Source of the DNA: a virus
Reading direction: 5' to 3' (one strand)
Virus record (IMG/VR): IMGVR_UViG_3300033141_001517
Coordinates: 1-37,917 of that record
DNA length: 37,917 bases
Of the stretch, positions 2,756 through 37,917 are shown in pieces. The notes under the pieces are model-generated. The model was not told the DNA's origin. It searched no databases and saw nothing but the letters and a program-made list of their open reading frames with translations. Position 1 is the first letter of the stretch; each line of letters opens with the position of its first letter. The position numbers and the translations under genes were made by a program.

Positions 2756-3406
2756 TTTCTTGTCCTTTTTGTTAATATTAATATTTGAATTATACAGAGC
2801 GGCACACGCCACTAGCTTTTTATCCGTGCTTAGTTCTTGATTTATTTGTTTTCCTGTTAGTTCAACCTCGTCAACTATCCCAAACTCTTTGGCCTCTTCG
2901 GCTGTAAATGTGGTCTCTTTGCCCATCGATTCTTTTACCTTGTCAATGTTTTGGCCTGAGCCCTCGGATATAATTAAGGCTAAAGATTCGCCAACTTTTT
3001 GAACTAATGAGTTTTCAGCGTCTGAGATGTTTTTATTTTCACCCGCAAAACGGGCGTCGTGTATCATTGTGGTTGCGTAATTAACCGCTGTTCGGTTTCC
3101 TTTTTTCCCGCTTGCAAGCAAAACGCCTGCCATTGAGTAGGCGATGCCCACGTTTTTCAATTTAATATTTACCCCTTTTGCTTGTAAGTATTCAACCGTT
3201 GCAATTATGGAGTACCCTTGAAAAACGTTTCCGCCGGGGGAATTAATTAGTATTGTGAGGTCGTTAATTTGTTGAGTCTCAGCAATAAAACGCAATTCGT
3301 TTGCGAAAGTGTCGCCGTTTACGTCGCTGCCAATTGCCCCGAATAAAAAAAAGGTTGCTTTTTTATTCTGTTTATTTTGAACAATTTTAGAGTATAACAA
3401 ATTCAT
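2219..3406 (-). CDS. ClpP-like prohead protease fused to a scaffold domain
   Basis: The protein has 395 residues. Residues 1-190 resemble the ClpP/SppA-like prohead protease: TILINSPGGNVFQG near 51-64, the nucleophile Ser91 in AYSMAG, and His116 in MIHDARF, 25 residues later as in ClpP. The third triad position, usually Asp, aligns with Glu164/Thr165 in GKETTF. Residues 218-395 are an acidic, Lys/Glu-rich coiled-coil region typical of scaffolds. An in-frame ATG at 2755 with AAAGGA upstream could start the scaffold alone. The protease would cut the scaffold, and perhaps capsid proteins, inside the prohead. A promoter of the second class lies just upstream. Confidence 0.9.
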   Translation of the reverse strand: MNLLYSKIVQNKQNKKATFFLFGAIGSDVNGDTFANELRFIAETQQINDLTILINSPGGNVFQGYSIIATVEYLQAKGVNIKLKNVGIAYSMAGVLLASGKKGNRTAVNYATTMIHDARFAGENKNISDAENSLVQKVGESLALIISEGSGQNIDKVKESMGKETTFTAEEAKEFGIVDEVELTGKQINQELSTDKKLVACAALYNSNININKKDKKMKLLNEFLGLNAEASEAAALSALRELKEDSAVKDEMVNELQDKLKLSDAKVEAMKKENGEIKKVTVKANAETLINTAVTDGKIQKDGAEKWIENAIKDFEGTKDLLESLSATPGDINAKLKTGGKPTGKKSEIEAKAAKFEEMLSDPAKLDALSATEKTELENAFNEINKTAEVSILN

Positions 3407-3428
3407 ATAGATGTGATTTATACAAAAG

Positions 3429-3460
3429 CAAAATTAATAAAGAAAACTTATATAAACAAA
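3429..3460 (-). promoter_or_regulatory. Promoter (second class) for protease-capsid genes
   Basis: On the - strand, TTTG (3460-3457), a 20-base gap and TAATTTTG (3436-3429) match the Bacteroidota consensus. Twenty-two bases separate the -7 box from the ATG at 3406. That leader matches the leader of the 10,463 gene at 17 of 22 positions, including TATAAAT and ATCTAT just before the ATG. Confidence 0.65.
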
Positions 3461-9743: not shown

Positions 9744-10463
9744 CTAAAATGTAAAATTTCGCTCTTTTGATTCCGTTGCACTTTCAACAATCACAATATT
9801 ACCTGTCTGGTCTTCCTGATTCTCCGTAATAAGTGGTAAATTCGGCTGTACAGAGCCTTTATTTATTTGTTTTAAATATCCAATAGCTCCGCCGTTTTGG
9901 CTTGCGCTATTGCCGTCGTACCTTTCTTTTCTAAATACTGGAATATCAACATTATTCAATCGGGTTAAAATATGGTAGATAATTATATCTGCAGTTAATT
10001 CAACCATTTTTAAATTTCTTGGGTCGCCTGAACTGAAAAAATCCGTATCAATTGGTAAATTTCCCGTGCTGTCTGCGATGCACTCGTATTTACTTTCGTT
10101 TGCAGCCACAAAGTCCCATTTTGCAGGGTCGAAGGGCTCGGCGATGGCTATATCTGTGTTTGCCGTGTAAATGTTTTTTTCAAAAGAAACAAAGTCATTT
10201 TCTGAATATGTCTGAGTCGCGTCGTAGGCGTCTTCAATCCAATAAACTCGGTCACCGATTACGAAAACCGTTGCGGCATCAAAAGGCTTTAGCACTTTGA
10301 ATATTAAAGCCTCGTCGTACCTTGCCCGTAAATAGCTGCTTATCTCTTCAATAGTGCTTATTAATTGAGTTTGCCATATTTCGTCAGCCTCGTTTATAAG
10401 CTTATTAAAAGCGTCCTGCGGGTAAGTTCGGTAAAAATCGGACTTTAGTATAAAATAATCCAT
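9744..10463 (-). CDS. Mu gp36-like (DUF1320) connector with inserted carbohydrate-binding-like region
   Basis: The protein has 239 residues, longer than typical gp36 proteins (about 140). The ends fit DUF1320: N-terminal helices to about residue 58 and a C-terminal VELTADIIIYHILTRLNN, then a segment like YDGNSASQNGGAIGYLKQIN ahead of KGSVQPNLP. Between about 61 and 130 there is extra sequence with the pattern of CBM5/12-type modules, GDRVYW and YSENDFVSFEKNIYTANTD ending FDPAKW. Gp36 proteins help connect head and tail. The inserted part could be exposed on the virion and bind surface sugar. The insert reading is by eye. Confidence 0.7.
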   Translation of the reverse strand: MDYFILKSDFYRTYPQDAFNKLINEADEIWQTQLISTIEEISSYLRARYDEALIFKVLKPFDAATVFVIGDRVYWIEDAYDATQTYSENDFVSFEKNIYTANTDIAIAEPFDPAKWDFVAANESKYECIADSTGNLPIDTDFFSSGDPRNLKMVELTADIIIYHILTRLNNVDIPVFRKERYDGNSASQNGGAIGYLKQINKGSVQPNLPLITENQEDQTGNIVIVESATESKERNFTF

Positions 10464-10485
10464 ATAGATAAAATTTATATAAAAA

Positions 10486-10517
10486 CAAAATTAATCAATT
10501 TTATCCTTAAAAACAAA
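10486..10517 (-). promoter_or_regulatory. Promoter (second class) for connector/portal genes
   Basis: On the - strand, TTTG (10,517-10,514), a 20-base gap and TAATTTTG (10,493-10,486), with the ATG 22 bases further on. Spacing and leader (TATAAAT, ATCTATATG) match the promoter at 3429-3460. Its -33 box overlaps the T-tract of the hairpin terminator of the gene before it. Confidence 0.65.
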
Positions 10518-13640: not shown

Positions 13641-13671
13641 CAAAGATAAGATATTTTTTCACACTTTCAAA
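13641..13671 (-). promoter_or_regulatory. Early-type promoter for membrane protein and terminase genes
   Basis: On the - strand TTTG (13,671-13,668), a 19-base gap and TATCTTTG (13,648-13,641), 24 bases before the ATG at 13,616. It matches the two divergent promoters at 16.5 kb in boxes and spacing and would drive the membrane protein, the 52-residue protein, TerS and TerL. Confidence 0.75.
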
Positions 13672-14214: not shown

Positions 14215-15195
14215 TTAAAAAATACTTAAAGTTTCCAAAATGTGGGCAATTACGTCAACCGTCCAACCGTTCCCTAGCATTTTATATCTTTGTGTATTAC
14301 TTACGTGGTTTGTGTAATTATCGGGCACGGTTTGCAGCCTCTCGCATTCTATGGGGGTTAGGTGTCTGTAATGTATATTTTCATCATTATAAACATCTAC
14401 GTATCTATTCGGAGGTAGCACCCTTAAAACGTTATCTTTTTGCACGGTGGTTAAGCACCCGGTTTTGTAATTGAGGTGTTTAACTTGCAAACATTGGGTA
14501 ACAGATACTTTTTTATTGTAGTCCTCTCTTACCCCCCTCTCGTTGATTCTCCTACCAACAATTGAAGCTGGAAACACTATCTGTCTTCTACTCTTATCAA
14601 AATAATTTTTCAAATTTCCTTTTTTCCAGTAGTTAGCATCAATACAAAACGCTTTTTCTTTTTCTGTTAAATCGTATTCTAAAACGTCTTTTAATAAAAT
14701 ACCTTTGTCCTCCGGCTGCTCTATATTAGGGATGTTTGTCCAGTATAAACGACGGCGGTTTTGCGCTGAAACTAAAGCGGAGTTTATCCCTATAGGTTCG
14801 ACGCCTAAATATTTAGTAATAACGTCCTGATATTCTTTTTTCATCTTTACATTTTCCAATAAAAAATACAAAGGATTAGTTTCCTTTAATAATCTGACAA
14901 ACTCGAAAAATAAGGCGCTCCGAGGGTCTTCAAAATTCAATTGCTTGCCCGCAAAGCTGAAACCCTGGCAGGGGCTGCCCCCCACTAATAAGTCTATCTT
15001 TTCGAGGTCTGCCCCTTTTATCTTGGTTATGTCCCCCAGTTGGATGGTGTCGGGGTAATTTGCGTCGTTTACAATATTTGCGTATTTATCTATTTCAGAT
15101 GAATATCTTTTATTTACTTCTACCCCCAAAAGGTCTAAGGCTATCCAAATAGACCCCAAACCGTTAAAAGTACTTAATACATTTATTCCTTTCAT
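14215..15195 (-). CDS. DNA cytosine-5 methyltransferase (orphan)
   Basis: The protein has 326 residues. All key C5-methyltransferase motifs are visible: FNGLGS (motif I, about 10-15), GGSPCQGFSFAGKQ (motif IV, catalytic Cys76), LLENV (motif VI, 112-116), QNRRRLYW (motif VIII, 145-152), and a C-terminal RHLTPIECERLQTVPDNY plus MLGNGWTVDV (motifs IX-X). It would methylate cytosine in phage DNA. No restriction enzyme is next to it, so protection from host restriction or marking of phage DNA is the likely purpose. The recognition sequence cannot be read from the gene. It is the last gene of the leftward early operon. Confidence 0.95.
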   Translation of the reverse strand: MKGINVLSTFNGLGSIWIALDLLGVEVNKRYSSEIDKYANIVNDANYPDTIQLGDITKIKGADLEKIDLLVGGSPCQGFSFAGKQLNFEDPRSALFFEFVRLLKETNPLYFLLENVKMKKEYQDVITKYLGVEPIGINSALVSAQNRRRLYWTNIPNIEQPEDKGILLKDVLEYDLTEKEKAFCIDANYWKKGNLKNYFDKSRRQIVFPASIVGRRINERGVREDYNKKVSVTQCLQVKHLNYKTGCLTTVQKDNVLRVLPPNRYVDVYNDENIHYRHLTPIECERLQTVPDNYTNHVSNTQRYKMLGNGWTVDVIAHILETLSIF

Positions 15196-15205
15196 ATTTC
15201 AAACT

Positions 15206-15424
15206 TTAAAACACCCTAAATTTATTTACTTCTATGTCGAAGCTTCTATACACTTTGATACCAAACATTTTAGGGTTGTCGGTTTCGACCCCCTCTACGA
15301 AAAAAGCGCTTTCCGTAATTAAATAGAGGGTGTTTTGGTTAATAATAATGCCCTCCGGCTCTTTCCCCCTATTCTCGTACTTAAATTTATGCACTGCGTT
15401 CTGTAAATCGTTTATTAAATTCAT
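15206..15424 (-). CDS. Small protein of unknown function, 72 residues
   Basis: The protein alternates short helices and strands (MNLINDLQNAVHKFKYENRG, IIINQNTLYLI, FGIKVYRSFDIEV). The strand part resembles the small phage proteins with an ITES/YRSFD pattern often found near nucleases, but I cannot name a family. It overlaps the exonuclease gene by four bases (ATGA) and precedes the methyltransferase by 10 bases. Confidence 0.7.
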   Translation of the reverse strand: MNLINDLQNAVHKFKYENRGKEPEGIIINQNTLYLITESAFFVEGVETDNPKMFGIKVYRSFDIEVNKFRVF

Positions 15425-15999
15425 ATCTCGAAGTCCTCTCCTGTTACAATTCTATAAATATCTCTTGTTAATTCCACATCATAAAAAGCGTCATGTAAGG
15501 ACTCTTCTTTTATTTCTATACCTAACTCCTTGGCGACCCTTTTAAGTTTAAAAGAGGGCATGTTTTCCCGCCGAGTTATCAAGTATTGCGCTGCTAAGCT
15601 CATCACATCAATTTCACTTTTCCAGAACCACGAGTCTATGAAACTGTCTCCGTTCTGTTCGAACCAAGCCCGCAAAAACACACTATCAAAATGGCTAATA
15701 TTAAACCCAATAAGAAAAGCTTTTTGTTTAGGGTTGTACTTATCAACATACTTTGTTAACACCCTTATGAGCTTTCTATAAGCCTTCGCCATTTCGGGGT
15801 AAGCTTTTAATTCGGCCTCGGTCTTTTTACAAATAGTCAAAGCGATAGGTTCGTACTCTGCTTTCGGGTGTGGCCGTGTCTTTATGTCGAACTTTTCGAC
15901 TACTTCGCCGTCGACTTCTATAAACCCGGCGATTTGATGAATAGAATGTTTTCTAACATTCACCCCCGTTGTCTCCAAACCTAAGAATATTTTTAACAT
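15421..15999 (-). CDS. DnaQ-like 3'-5' exonuclease with a changed first catalytic residue
   Basis: The protein has 192 residues with the DEDDh layout: ExoI text FLGLETTGVN (residues 5-14), ExoII FNISHFD with Asp105, and ExoIII HDAFYD with His169 and Asp174. Normally ExoI reads DxE. Here the first Asp is Gly7 (codon GGT at 15,981-15,979), while Glu9 and all other metal ligands remain. The enzyme may be inactive, or use another residue, and may act by binding. It starts directly after the preceding gene's stop and is part of the methyltransferase operon. Confidence 0.85.
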   Translation of the reverse strand: MLKIFLGLETTGVNVRKHSIHQIAGFIEVDGEVVEKFDIKTRPHPKAEYEPIALTICKKTEAELKAYPEMAKAYRKLIRVLTKYVDKYNPKQKAFLIGFNISHFDSVFLRAWFEQNGDSFIDSWFWKSEIDVMSLAAQYLITRRENMPSFKLKRVAKELGIEIKEESLHDAFYDVELTRDIYRIVTGEDFEI

Positions 16000-16446
16000 T
16001 TAAAACATTTTATAAGTTAATAAATTTGTGGTTTCTATATTTACGTATTTCGATACTGCTTTTATTATGAAGTCTTTTAAACCATCTAAGTAATCTTCAA
16101 ACCCCGAAAGTTCCCCAAATTTAGAACTAAAAGAAGTATTCTTTATTAAACTCTCGAAATCTAACCTTTCTATTATTCCTAAAATCTTATCACCTATACC
16201 CTCGAGGTTTTGAAAGTTGTACTTGAATTCTTCTTCGAGTTCCCCATTAGCACAATAGAGGTAGATATAATCGAAGACCCCTAGCATCTCGTCTCTTTCA
16301 TCTCTAAAAACCAAAGGCATTTTTTTAAAATCTACGTAATAGATTAGAGAGCCCATAATAGTTAACATCTCAAAGTTAACCCCTTGATATTTTGGTAGCC
16401 ACAAAGTGTGCCTTTCTAAAGTATCCAAATCCTTTTCTAAATCCAT
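16000..16446 (-). CDS. Unknown protein, first gene of the leftward early operon
   Basis: The protein has 148 residues, mildly acidic, with helix-rich text (LERHTLWLPKYQGVNFEMLT at 11-30, FDYIYLYCANGELEEEF, FIIKAVSKYVNIETTNLLTY). There is no membrane segment and no known motif. Being the first gene behind a strong early-type promoter makes a host-takeover role possible. Its ATG at 16,446 is about 17 bases from the expected transcript start. Confidence 0.75.
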   Translation of the reverse strand: MDLEKDLDTLERHTLWLPKYQGVNFEMLTIMGSLIYYVDFKKMPLVFRDERDEMLGVFDYIYLYCANGELEEEFKYNFQNLEGIGDKILGIIERLDFESLIKNTSFSSKFGELSGFEDYLDGLKDFIIKAVSKYVNIETTNLLTYKMF

Positions 16447-16469
16447 ATTATTAAAATATTAGTTCGAGG

Positions 16470-16500
16470 CAAAGATAAACATATTTTTCAAACTTACAAA
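16470..16500 (-). promoter_or_regulatory. Leftward early promoter
   Basis: On the - strand TTTG (16,500-16,497), a 19-base gap and TATCTTTG (16,477-16,470). Its -7 box lies inside the left copy of the 21-bp inverted repeat. It drives the unknown protein, exonuclease and methyltransferase operon. Confidence 0.85.
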
Positions 16501-16514
16501 TAAATATAATATTT

Positions 16515-16545
16515 TTTGCTTATTTGATAATAATTGTTATCTTTG
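16515..16545 (+). promoter_or_regulatory. Rightward early promoter
   Basis: TTTG (16,515-16,518), a 19-base gap and TATCTTTG (16,538-16,545) match the Bacteroidota -33/-7 consensus. The ATG of the first gene is at 16,566. The -7 box lies in the right copy of the 21-bp inverted repeat. Confidence 0.85.
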
Positions 16546-16565
16546 CCTCGAACTAATTAAACAAA

Positions 16566-16814
16566 ATGACTTTACTAACAGGAAAAGAAATACAAGCGCG
16601 CAAAGCAATAGGTTTACAAGTTGCGCAACAACTTAGAAACAGTTTTACCACTCAGGACGAAGCGGCGAAGTATGCCAAAGTAACCCCCGCCCAAATGTCC
16701 GCAGTGGTTAACGGGCGAAATAATTACACGATTGAAACGCTCACAAAAATAGTTATTGCAAATAGCTTAAATTTGAGTCTATCAAATGAAATATTTAACA
16801 ATTATAAGTTATGA
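16566..16814 (+). CDS. Small helix-turn-helix protein, likely regulator
   Basis: The protein has 82 residues. Residues about 29-65 (TQDEAAKYAKVTPAQMSAVV then NGRNNYTIETLTKIVIA) fit the XRE/Cro-type helix-turn-helix. It is the first gene of the rightward arm, 21 bases after the expected promoter region, and it sits next to the symmetric operator. It may control the two divergent promoters. Its stop overlaps the next start by four bases (ATGA). Confidence 0.8.
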   Translation: MTLLTGKEIQARKAIGLQVAQQLRNSFTTQDEAAKYAKVTPAQMSAVVNGRNNYTIETLTKIVIANSLNLSLSNEIFNNYKL

Positions 16815-17011
16815 AATCTAAAGAGGCAAGAGACGCGATAATATCCGTAATTGATAACCAATTACAAGGGGGGCTTAAACCAACTAAACAGGTTTACAAA
16901 TGGGGGAGGTCAAAGAAAGAGCTTTTCGATAGTCTTTCAGGAATGTTGCAAAAAGGTCTAAGCCTCAGTGAACAAAATTATTTAAACGAAAGAAAAGAAA
17001 AAAATTTGTAA
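16811..17011 (+). CDS. Small basic protein of unknown function, 66 residues
   Basis: It begins MKSKEARDAIISVIDNQLQG and continues GGLKPTKQVYKWGRSKKELF with an ending rich in Lys and Glu. It is helical and basic with no known motif. The four-base overlap with the HTH gene shows co-translation, so it may assist or antagonise that regulator. Confidence 0.7.
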   Translation: MKSKEARDAIISVIDNQLQGGLKPTKQVYKWGRSKKELFDSLSGMLQKGLSLSEQNYLNERKEKNL

Positions 17012-17016
17012 ATTGT

Positions 17017-17047
17017 TTTGGTAGTTTAATATTTTGTATTAGCTTTG
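17017..17047 (+). promoter_or_regulatory. Early-type promoter for the second HTH gene
   Basis: TTTG (17,017-17,020), a 19-base gap and TAGCTTTG (17,040-17,047). The transcript would start near 17,053, which favours the ATG at 17,064 over the one at 17,055. Confidence 0.75.
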
Positions 17048-17063
17048 CATCAAAATGGTAAAC

Positions 17064-17273
17064 ATGGAAAACACAGTTTTAAAAAACAGGATTAAAGAAA
17101 ACAGGTGGCGTTTAGACTTAACACAAGACGAACTGGCCCAAAAAGTAAATTTATCGAGGGTAACTTTAGGCAAATTTGAGCGCGGGGGAAACCCAGATTT
17201 ACAAAAAGCTTTTGAAATTGCCGAAGTTCTTGGGGTAACTTTAACAGAATTATTTTATATAGAAACCAAATAA
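17064..17273 (+). CDS. XRE-family helix-turn-helix regulator
   Basis: With ATG 17,064 the protein has 69 residues (MENTVLKNRIKENRWRLDLT...). An upstream ATG at 17,055 would be almost leaderless. The HTH motif is clear: LTQDELAQKVNLSRVTLGKF followed by ERGGNPDLQKAFEIAEVLGV and a C-terminal TLTELFYIETK, typical of small XRE/Cro-type regulators. It has its own promoter and probably represses or switches one of the arms. No lysogeny module is visible, so it need not be a CI-type repressor. Confidence 0.9.
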   Translation: MENTVLKNRIKENRWRLDLTQDELAQKVNLSRVTLGKFERGGNPDLQKAFEIAEVLGVTLTELFYIETK

Positions 17274-26570: not shown

Positions 26571-26601
26571 TTTGCTATTTAGAAAAAGATGTTTATCTTT
26601 G
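26571..26601 (+). promoter_or_regulatory. Early-type promoter for the last right-arm genes
   Basis: TTTG (26,571-26,574), a 19-base gap and TATCTTTG (26,594-26,601), starting two bases after the SNF2 stop. The transcript start near 26,608 shows that the next gene begins at ATG 26,634 and not at 26,589. Confidence 0.8.
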
Positions 26602-37450: not shown

Positions 37451-37917
37451 TTATGATAATTGAGTTGCAAAACTTAAATCAACCTCAATAACTCCCGCTG
37501 CTCCAATTGGAACAATTCTCGCTGTTATAACGATTTTATTAGTCGTCAAAACGTCTTGGTCTGGGTTTATTGTTATTGAGTTTTGCGGAATTCGTCCCGT
37601 TGCCGGTTCTACGCTAATTTCCTGATTTACGGCCATTACATTTAAAGCCTCTCTAGCCGCCGAGTCAAAAACGCCAATTGTTTGCTCTGTGATTTTTCCC
37701 GTTGTAGGGTCAACAAAAATTGGGGCATTTTGTAAAGGTGCTAATTTTTCGAGAATTAAACGTTTTGCCTTGCTTATCGTTCGATTAAATCTTTGCTCTG
37801 TAAAGTCGGAAGTTCCCGCGCTTGCCGTTACTGAGTCCGTGTAAAAATATGAGCCTGTTATACGCCTTTTTATAATCAGGGTTAAACCCTCAGTATTTAA
37901 CAGGTCTATTTCCGTAT
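37451..37917 (-). CDS. Tail sheath protein, C-terminal part
   Basis: This is the 3' part of the sheath gene that starts at 847. It ends in ...EVDLSFATQLS with its stop at 37,451-37,453. The segment includes a typical conserved sheath C-terminal portion with NSITINPDQDVLTTNKI and IVPIGAAGVIEVDL, resembling the strand-exchange region by which neighbouring sheath subunits interlock. An in-frame ATG at 37,636 is internal and should not be taken as a separate small gene. The tube gene starts 11 bases downstream. Confidence 0.8.
   Translation of the reverse strand, partial: TEIDLLNTEGLTLIIKRRITGSYFYTDSVTASAGTSDFTEQRFNRTISKAKRLILEKLAPLQNAPIFVDPTTGKITEQTIGVFDSAAREALNVMAVNQEISVEPATGRIPQNSITINPDQDVLTTNKIVITARIVPIGAAGVIEVDLSFATQLS
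37804..37917. repeat. Right copy of the 114-bp terminal direct repeat
   Basis: This is an exact copy of bases 1-114 and codes for the same internal part of the tail sheath gene. One of the two copies should be removed when the genome is drawn as a circle. Confidence 0.95.

Follow-up and report, generated by a model that had tools for sequence, protein, structure and literature searches.

Two promoters that face away from each other in a phage genome carry the same 21 bases, from the -7 box into the early leader. This locus raises the question of whether the identity marks a binding site shared by a regulator, and if so, which part of the sequence is the site. We addressed this question by analysing the whole 37,917-nt stretch of the virus record IMGVR_UViG_3300033141_001517 (positions 1–37,917), hereafter termed the window.

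Genes on either side of the junction

Analysis of the window ends revealed a direct repeat of 114 bp (1–114 and 37804–37917), suggesting that the record probably represents an entire genome closed into a circle. The window is probably a terminally redundant 37.9-kb phage of Bacteroidota, from an uncharacterised lineage in which a profile search identified a single close relative, L014 (record G001, 36,926 bp), with a DUF2800 protein 76% identical to that of the window; we refer to it as the sister phage. The junction at the inverted repeat divides rightward replication genes from leftward exonuclease, methylase and structural genes. The rightward genes encode, in order, an 82-aa HTH protein, a 66-aa protein, a 69-aa HTH protein, a DUF2800 exonuclease, a ssDNA-binding protein, a polymerase and helicases, while the leftward genes encode a 148-aa protein, a DnaQ-like exonuclease, a C5-methylase, the terminase and the structural proteins. 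The genes nearest the junction that enter the argument are as follows:

14215..15195, minus strand: cytosine-5 DNA methylase, fourth leftward gene, in the leftward operon
15421..15999, minus strand: DnaQ-like exonuclease, second leftward gene
16000..16446, minus strand: 148-aa protein of unassigned function, first leftward gene
16566..16814, plus strand: 82-aa Cro/C1-type HTH protein, candidate repressor, adjoining the repeat; 59% identical in the sister phage
16811..17011, plus strand: 66-aa protein; 58% identical in the sister phage
17064..17273, plus strand: 69-aa HTH_3 protein, third rightward gene; 55% identical in the sister phage

The gene order at the junction is the same in the sister phage. 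Neither the terminase nor the cytosine-5 methylase of the window has a match there; with the terminase unmatched, the two phages appear to share a control and replication module and not the packaging genes. The 82-aa, 66-aa and 148-aa proteins, compared with viral contigs, genome contigs and annotated phages, matched the sister record or nothing, and a search with the regulator of the sister phage gave two weak matches (E 0.04–0.06). In four relatives of the replication module (L008–L011), the regulator is a different one and the repeat is absent. No integrase or other prophage maintenance gene was found among the proteins scanned, which represent part of the ORFs, and the 148-aa product gave no HTH match. 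The first leftward gene (16000–16446) is unrelated to its counterpart in the sister phage (L014 1480–1791), though both neighbours are conserved, and this position may be a swappable early-gene slot.

Twin promoters and the 21-bp inverted repeat

Bacteroidota primary-sigma promoters have the consensus TAnnTTTG, and in Flavobacterium the -7 box was mapped at -12 to -5 (PMC9723704). Both junction promoters fit this consensus exactly, each with TTTG-N19-TAnnTTTG ahead of a gene, and the box position in Flavobacterium predicts transcription starts near 16550 and 16465. Such sites number six in the window against 0.44 expected. What the junction promoters carry beyond the consensus is a leader repeat and a dyad, the latter treated in the next section. 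The promoters and the arms of the repeat are located as follows:

16470..16500, minus strand: leftward promoter, TTTG-N19-TATCTTTG, predicted start ~16465
16515..16545, plus strand: rightward promoter, TTTG-N19-TATCTTTG, predicted start ~16550
16458..16478, minus strand: left arm, the -7 box and leader of the leftward promoter, ATTAGTTCGAGGCAAAGATAA
16537..16557, plus strand: right arm, the -7 box and leader of the rightward promoter, TTATCTTTGCCTCGAACTAAT

The preliminary description had reported an identical 21-base promoter-plus-leader sequence in opposite orientation, 58 bases apart, and this was borne out, since the arms 16458–16478 and 16537–16557 are perfect reverse complements of 21 bp with 58 bp between them. 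The shared block begins 1 bp upstream of the -7 box, takes in all 8 bp of it and continues for 12 bp into the leader, extending from -13 to +8 relative to the predicted start. These are the only two copies in the window with up to three mismatches, none occurs in shuffled sequence, and 60 Markov shuffles of the window gave inverted-repeat arms of at most 17, compared with 21 observed. The two leaders are identical at 12/13 positions, while the next best of 81 divergent TTATCTTTG pairs, drawn from this window and 80 viral contigs, reaches 7/13; in the 79 other contigs, -33 boxes are missing from most of the pairs, which appear to be fortuitous. Inspection by eye found no convincing internal dyad in the 21-mer. 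A dimeric HTH repressor normally wants an internal dyad in its site.

A search of the viral contigs for a 16-bp part of the repeat returned three matches, all coincidental and inside other sequences, and Rfam returned none. The arms as ends of a mobile element were ruled out, with a single copy and no clear target duplications. The preliminary description had also placed both HTH genes directly next to the repeat, which holds for the gene at 16566; the gene at 17064 is the third rightward gene, lies about 500 bp away and has a promoter of its own.

A conserved 16-bp dyad as candidate operator

Comparison with the sister phage revealed that both promoters are kept there, but the agreement between its own leaders is only 4/13 positions, and that between these and the window leaders 3–6/13. 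Thus, as far as one relative tells, the leader half of the repeat is specific to the window phage, and the full 21-bp repeat, whose conservation among related phages the preliminary description had proposed as a check, is not conserved in this one. A 16-bp dyad, GATAAA-N4-TTTATC, is located at -24 to -9 in both promoters of the window and of the sister phage. Its 3' end is the TATC of the -7 box, and it overlaps the 21-bp repeat (-13 to +8) by only 5 bp. This comparison suggests that the 16-bp dyad, and not the identical leader, is the conserved candidate operator. The earlier idea of a shared binding site is therefore supported for the dyad, which stands in register in both promoters of both phages, rather than for the 21-bp repeat, whose leader part is not conserved in the sister phage. 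The candidate operators and the further promoters of the window are listed below:

16474..16489, minus strand: candidate left operator GAAAAATATGTTTATC, 15/16 identical to that of the sister phage
16526..16541, plus strand: candidate right operator GATAATAATTGTTATC
17017..17047, plus strand: promoter of the second HTH gene, with neither dyad nor repeat
26571..26601, plus strand: post-helicase promoter with the dyad GAAAAAGATGTTTATC at 26582–26597; the sister phage has a dyad at the corresponding place
13641..13671, minus strand: promoter ahead of the terminase genes, with a weak dyad at 13645–13660

In the sister phage, the dyads of the twin promoters are perfect (GATAAATTGATTTATC and GATAAATATGTTTATC). 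Its record contains exactly three perfect sites with 5-bp arms, all of them in promoters and all perfect over 6-bp arms, a form for which 0.009 sites are expected. The third site, just after the terminase gene in a structural module unrelated to that of the window, repeats the left operator at 16/16 positions between unrelated flanks, and a dyad with one mismatch at the end of the helicase gene occupies the same place as the 26571 promoter of the window. The four TATCTTTG promoters of the window carry 1, 1, 2 and 2 dyad mismatches, so that 4/4 have at most two, compared with 0/39 control sites (TTG-N18-20-TATCTTTG, from 2.1 Mb of other sequence). The hypergeometric probability of ~8e-6 serves as a guide only, because many controls may be chance matches and the sister phage had been seen before the motif was selected. 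Against the dyad as operator, the window sites are imperfect, sites with up to two mismatches over the whole window number no more than 12 against 6.9 expected, and the -7 box covers half of each dyad, part of which is therefore made by the promoter consensus itself. In both phages, a dyad overlapping the promoter lies beside the regulator gene and is conserved with it, a conservation drawn from one relative. The operator centres are 52 bp apart in the window and 41 bp apart in the sister phage; these distances are close to whole helical turns and would place the dimers on the same face of the DNA, a post hoc reading of two cases.

Structure prediction gives the 82-aa product of 16566 an XRE fold (mean pLDDT 78). 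The nearest folds are HipB and the C proteins C.BclI, C.AhdI and C.Esp1396I, with low sequence identity, and the fold match in itself shows no function. C proteins and HipB are small dimeric autoregulators with twin operators. Unlike those systems, the window has no visible HipA or restriction enzyme; a C gene lies beside a restriction enzyme and a methylase in restriction-modification loci, and here a methylase is present in the leftward operon with no restriction enzyme seen. The 82-aa protein, whose gene comes first after the promoter, would be the most likely one to bind the dyad, and the 69-aa HTH protein is a second candidate, conserved to the same extent. Both are small HTH proteins of the Cro/C1 type.

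We propose, with a probability of about 65%, that a Cro/C1-type dimer, most likely of the 82-aa product, binds the dyads at -24 to -9 and represses both early promoters. Both promoters, the dyad in register with them and the conservation of dyad and protein in the sister phage can be read from the DNA, and from these we infer the binding, the identity of the protein, the repression and its timing. In this scheme, the host primary sigma factor would drive two back-to-back early promoters with one palindromic operator each, and both operons would be on early after infection. As the HTH protein accumulates, its dimers would occupy both dyads and turn both operons off, which amounts to negative autoregulation. 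A dimer on the dyad would hide the -7 box and spacer and so repress the rightward operon that encodes it along with the leftward one. Repressor palindromes typically lie across the spacer and the -7 box. The weaker dyad copies could bring the post-helicase and terminase promoters under the same control.

On this reading the kind of system would be a known one, in which an autoregulatory HTH operator serves divergent early promoters of a phage. A precedent is PY54, whose lytic repressor Cro has a 16-bp palindromic operator (OR3; PMC4488713), and the window resembles PY54 in combining a small candidate repressor, a 16-bp palindromic candidate operator placed to control a promoter and divergent regulatory transcripts. 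PY54 infects enterobacteria, is temperate and has a single operator and a prophage repressor gene, whereas the window has two candidate operators, promoters of the Bacteroidota type and no visible prophage genes. In phi11, homologous operators lie between two divergently transcribed units (PMC3991615), as the candidate operators of the window do; the phi11 units are divergent repressor genes, whereas in the window the two HTH genes are both rightward and the leftward unit opens with unrelated genes. The lambda arrangement, divergent repressor and Cro-like genes with common operators, is likewise not found, both HTH genes being rightward. A limited search of open papers found no worked-out repressor-operator pair for any Bacteroidota phage. 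The outcome here is an exact 16-bp candidate operator with a small protein adjoining it, and a striking perfect repeat may point slightly off the conserved site.

Origin of the identical leaders

The readings of the leader given here, and the likelihoods attached to them, apply to nothing but the leader and are compatible with the dyad as operator. Template switching appears to fit the identical leader best, although we put it at somewhat under even odds. The identity would then be a mutational by-product in which one leader was copied over the other within an imperfect inverted repeat, extending a short core to 21 bp. Homogenisation of repeat arms by template switching is described in two reports (PMC8604942 and PMC3820800). 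The identical block is single and contiguous and sits beside an inverted core under constraint, folding of the single strand is much stronger than in shuffled sequences (z -9.3), and the leaders are identical in the window phage and not in its sister. Against this, no intermediate relative shows the event, and selection for a shared site would look alike in one genome. A rival reading makes the leader CCTCGAACTAAT (about -4 to +8) itself a second, lineage-specific site, for example one bound across the start by the 69-aa HTH protein, or one that sets equal rates of initiation and escape for both operons. The twelve in-register identical bases, unmatched among the 81 divergent pairs, and the lack of a third copy in the window with up to one mismatch speak for a second site. 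However, the sequence has no internal dyad, does not occur at the other window promoters and is missing from the sister phage even though both HTH proteins are kept there, and we consider this reading rather unlikely. A two-layer promoter is more improbable again: each promoter would combine the conserved dyad for one HTH protein with a fast-evolving leader across the start read by a second factor, the arms being kept identical by copying so that the operons always change together.

Two further readings take the repeat as a DNA structure or a recombination site. The change in the sign of the GC skew at 16–17 kb and the A+T-rich, strongly folding strand are as expected if the junction is mainly a replication origin with the repeat forming a hairpin or cruciform, but the skew tracks the direction of the genes and reverses once more at 28 kb, the identity that makes the hairpin is not conserved, and the surroundings showed no other repeat families of origin type; this makes an origin very improbable. 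Recombinase sites that invert the intervening segment, as in Bacteroidota invertible promoters, would agree with the size and layout of the locus and would need identical arms. No recombinase was found among the phage proteins scanned, however, and the repeat is not conserved in the sister phage. Moreover, inversion would merely swap the two -33 boxes and spacers, since either orientation keeps a complete promoter on each side, and we regard it as the least credible of these readings. Binding of an HTH dimer to the dyads remains our preferred account of the twin promoters.

Several observations accompany these results. A tandem repeat with a 58-bp unit, present in about 12 copies, adjoins the control region of the sister phage (L014 1–686, at the start of G001), and units similar to it occur elsewhere in the G001 record. 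The rightward promoter of the sister phage (L014 1862–1885) would start transcription at or beside an ATG, and its HTH message may be leaderless or may use a second ATG. In the window, leftward promoters of the form TTTG-N20-TAATTTTG stand ahead of structural genes at 3404–3460 and 10461–10517 (minus strand); they have in common the leader TATAAATNNNATCTATATG, which runs into the start codon, and perhaps represent a late-promoter class.
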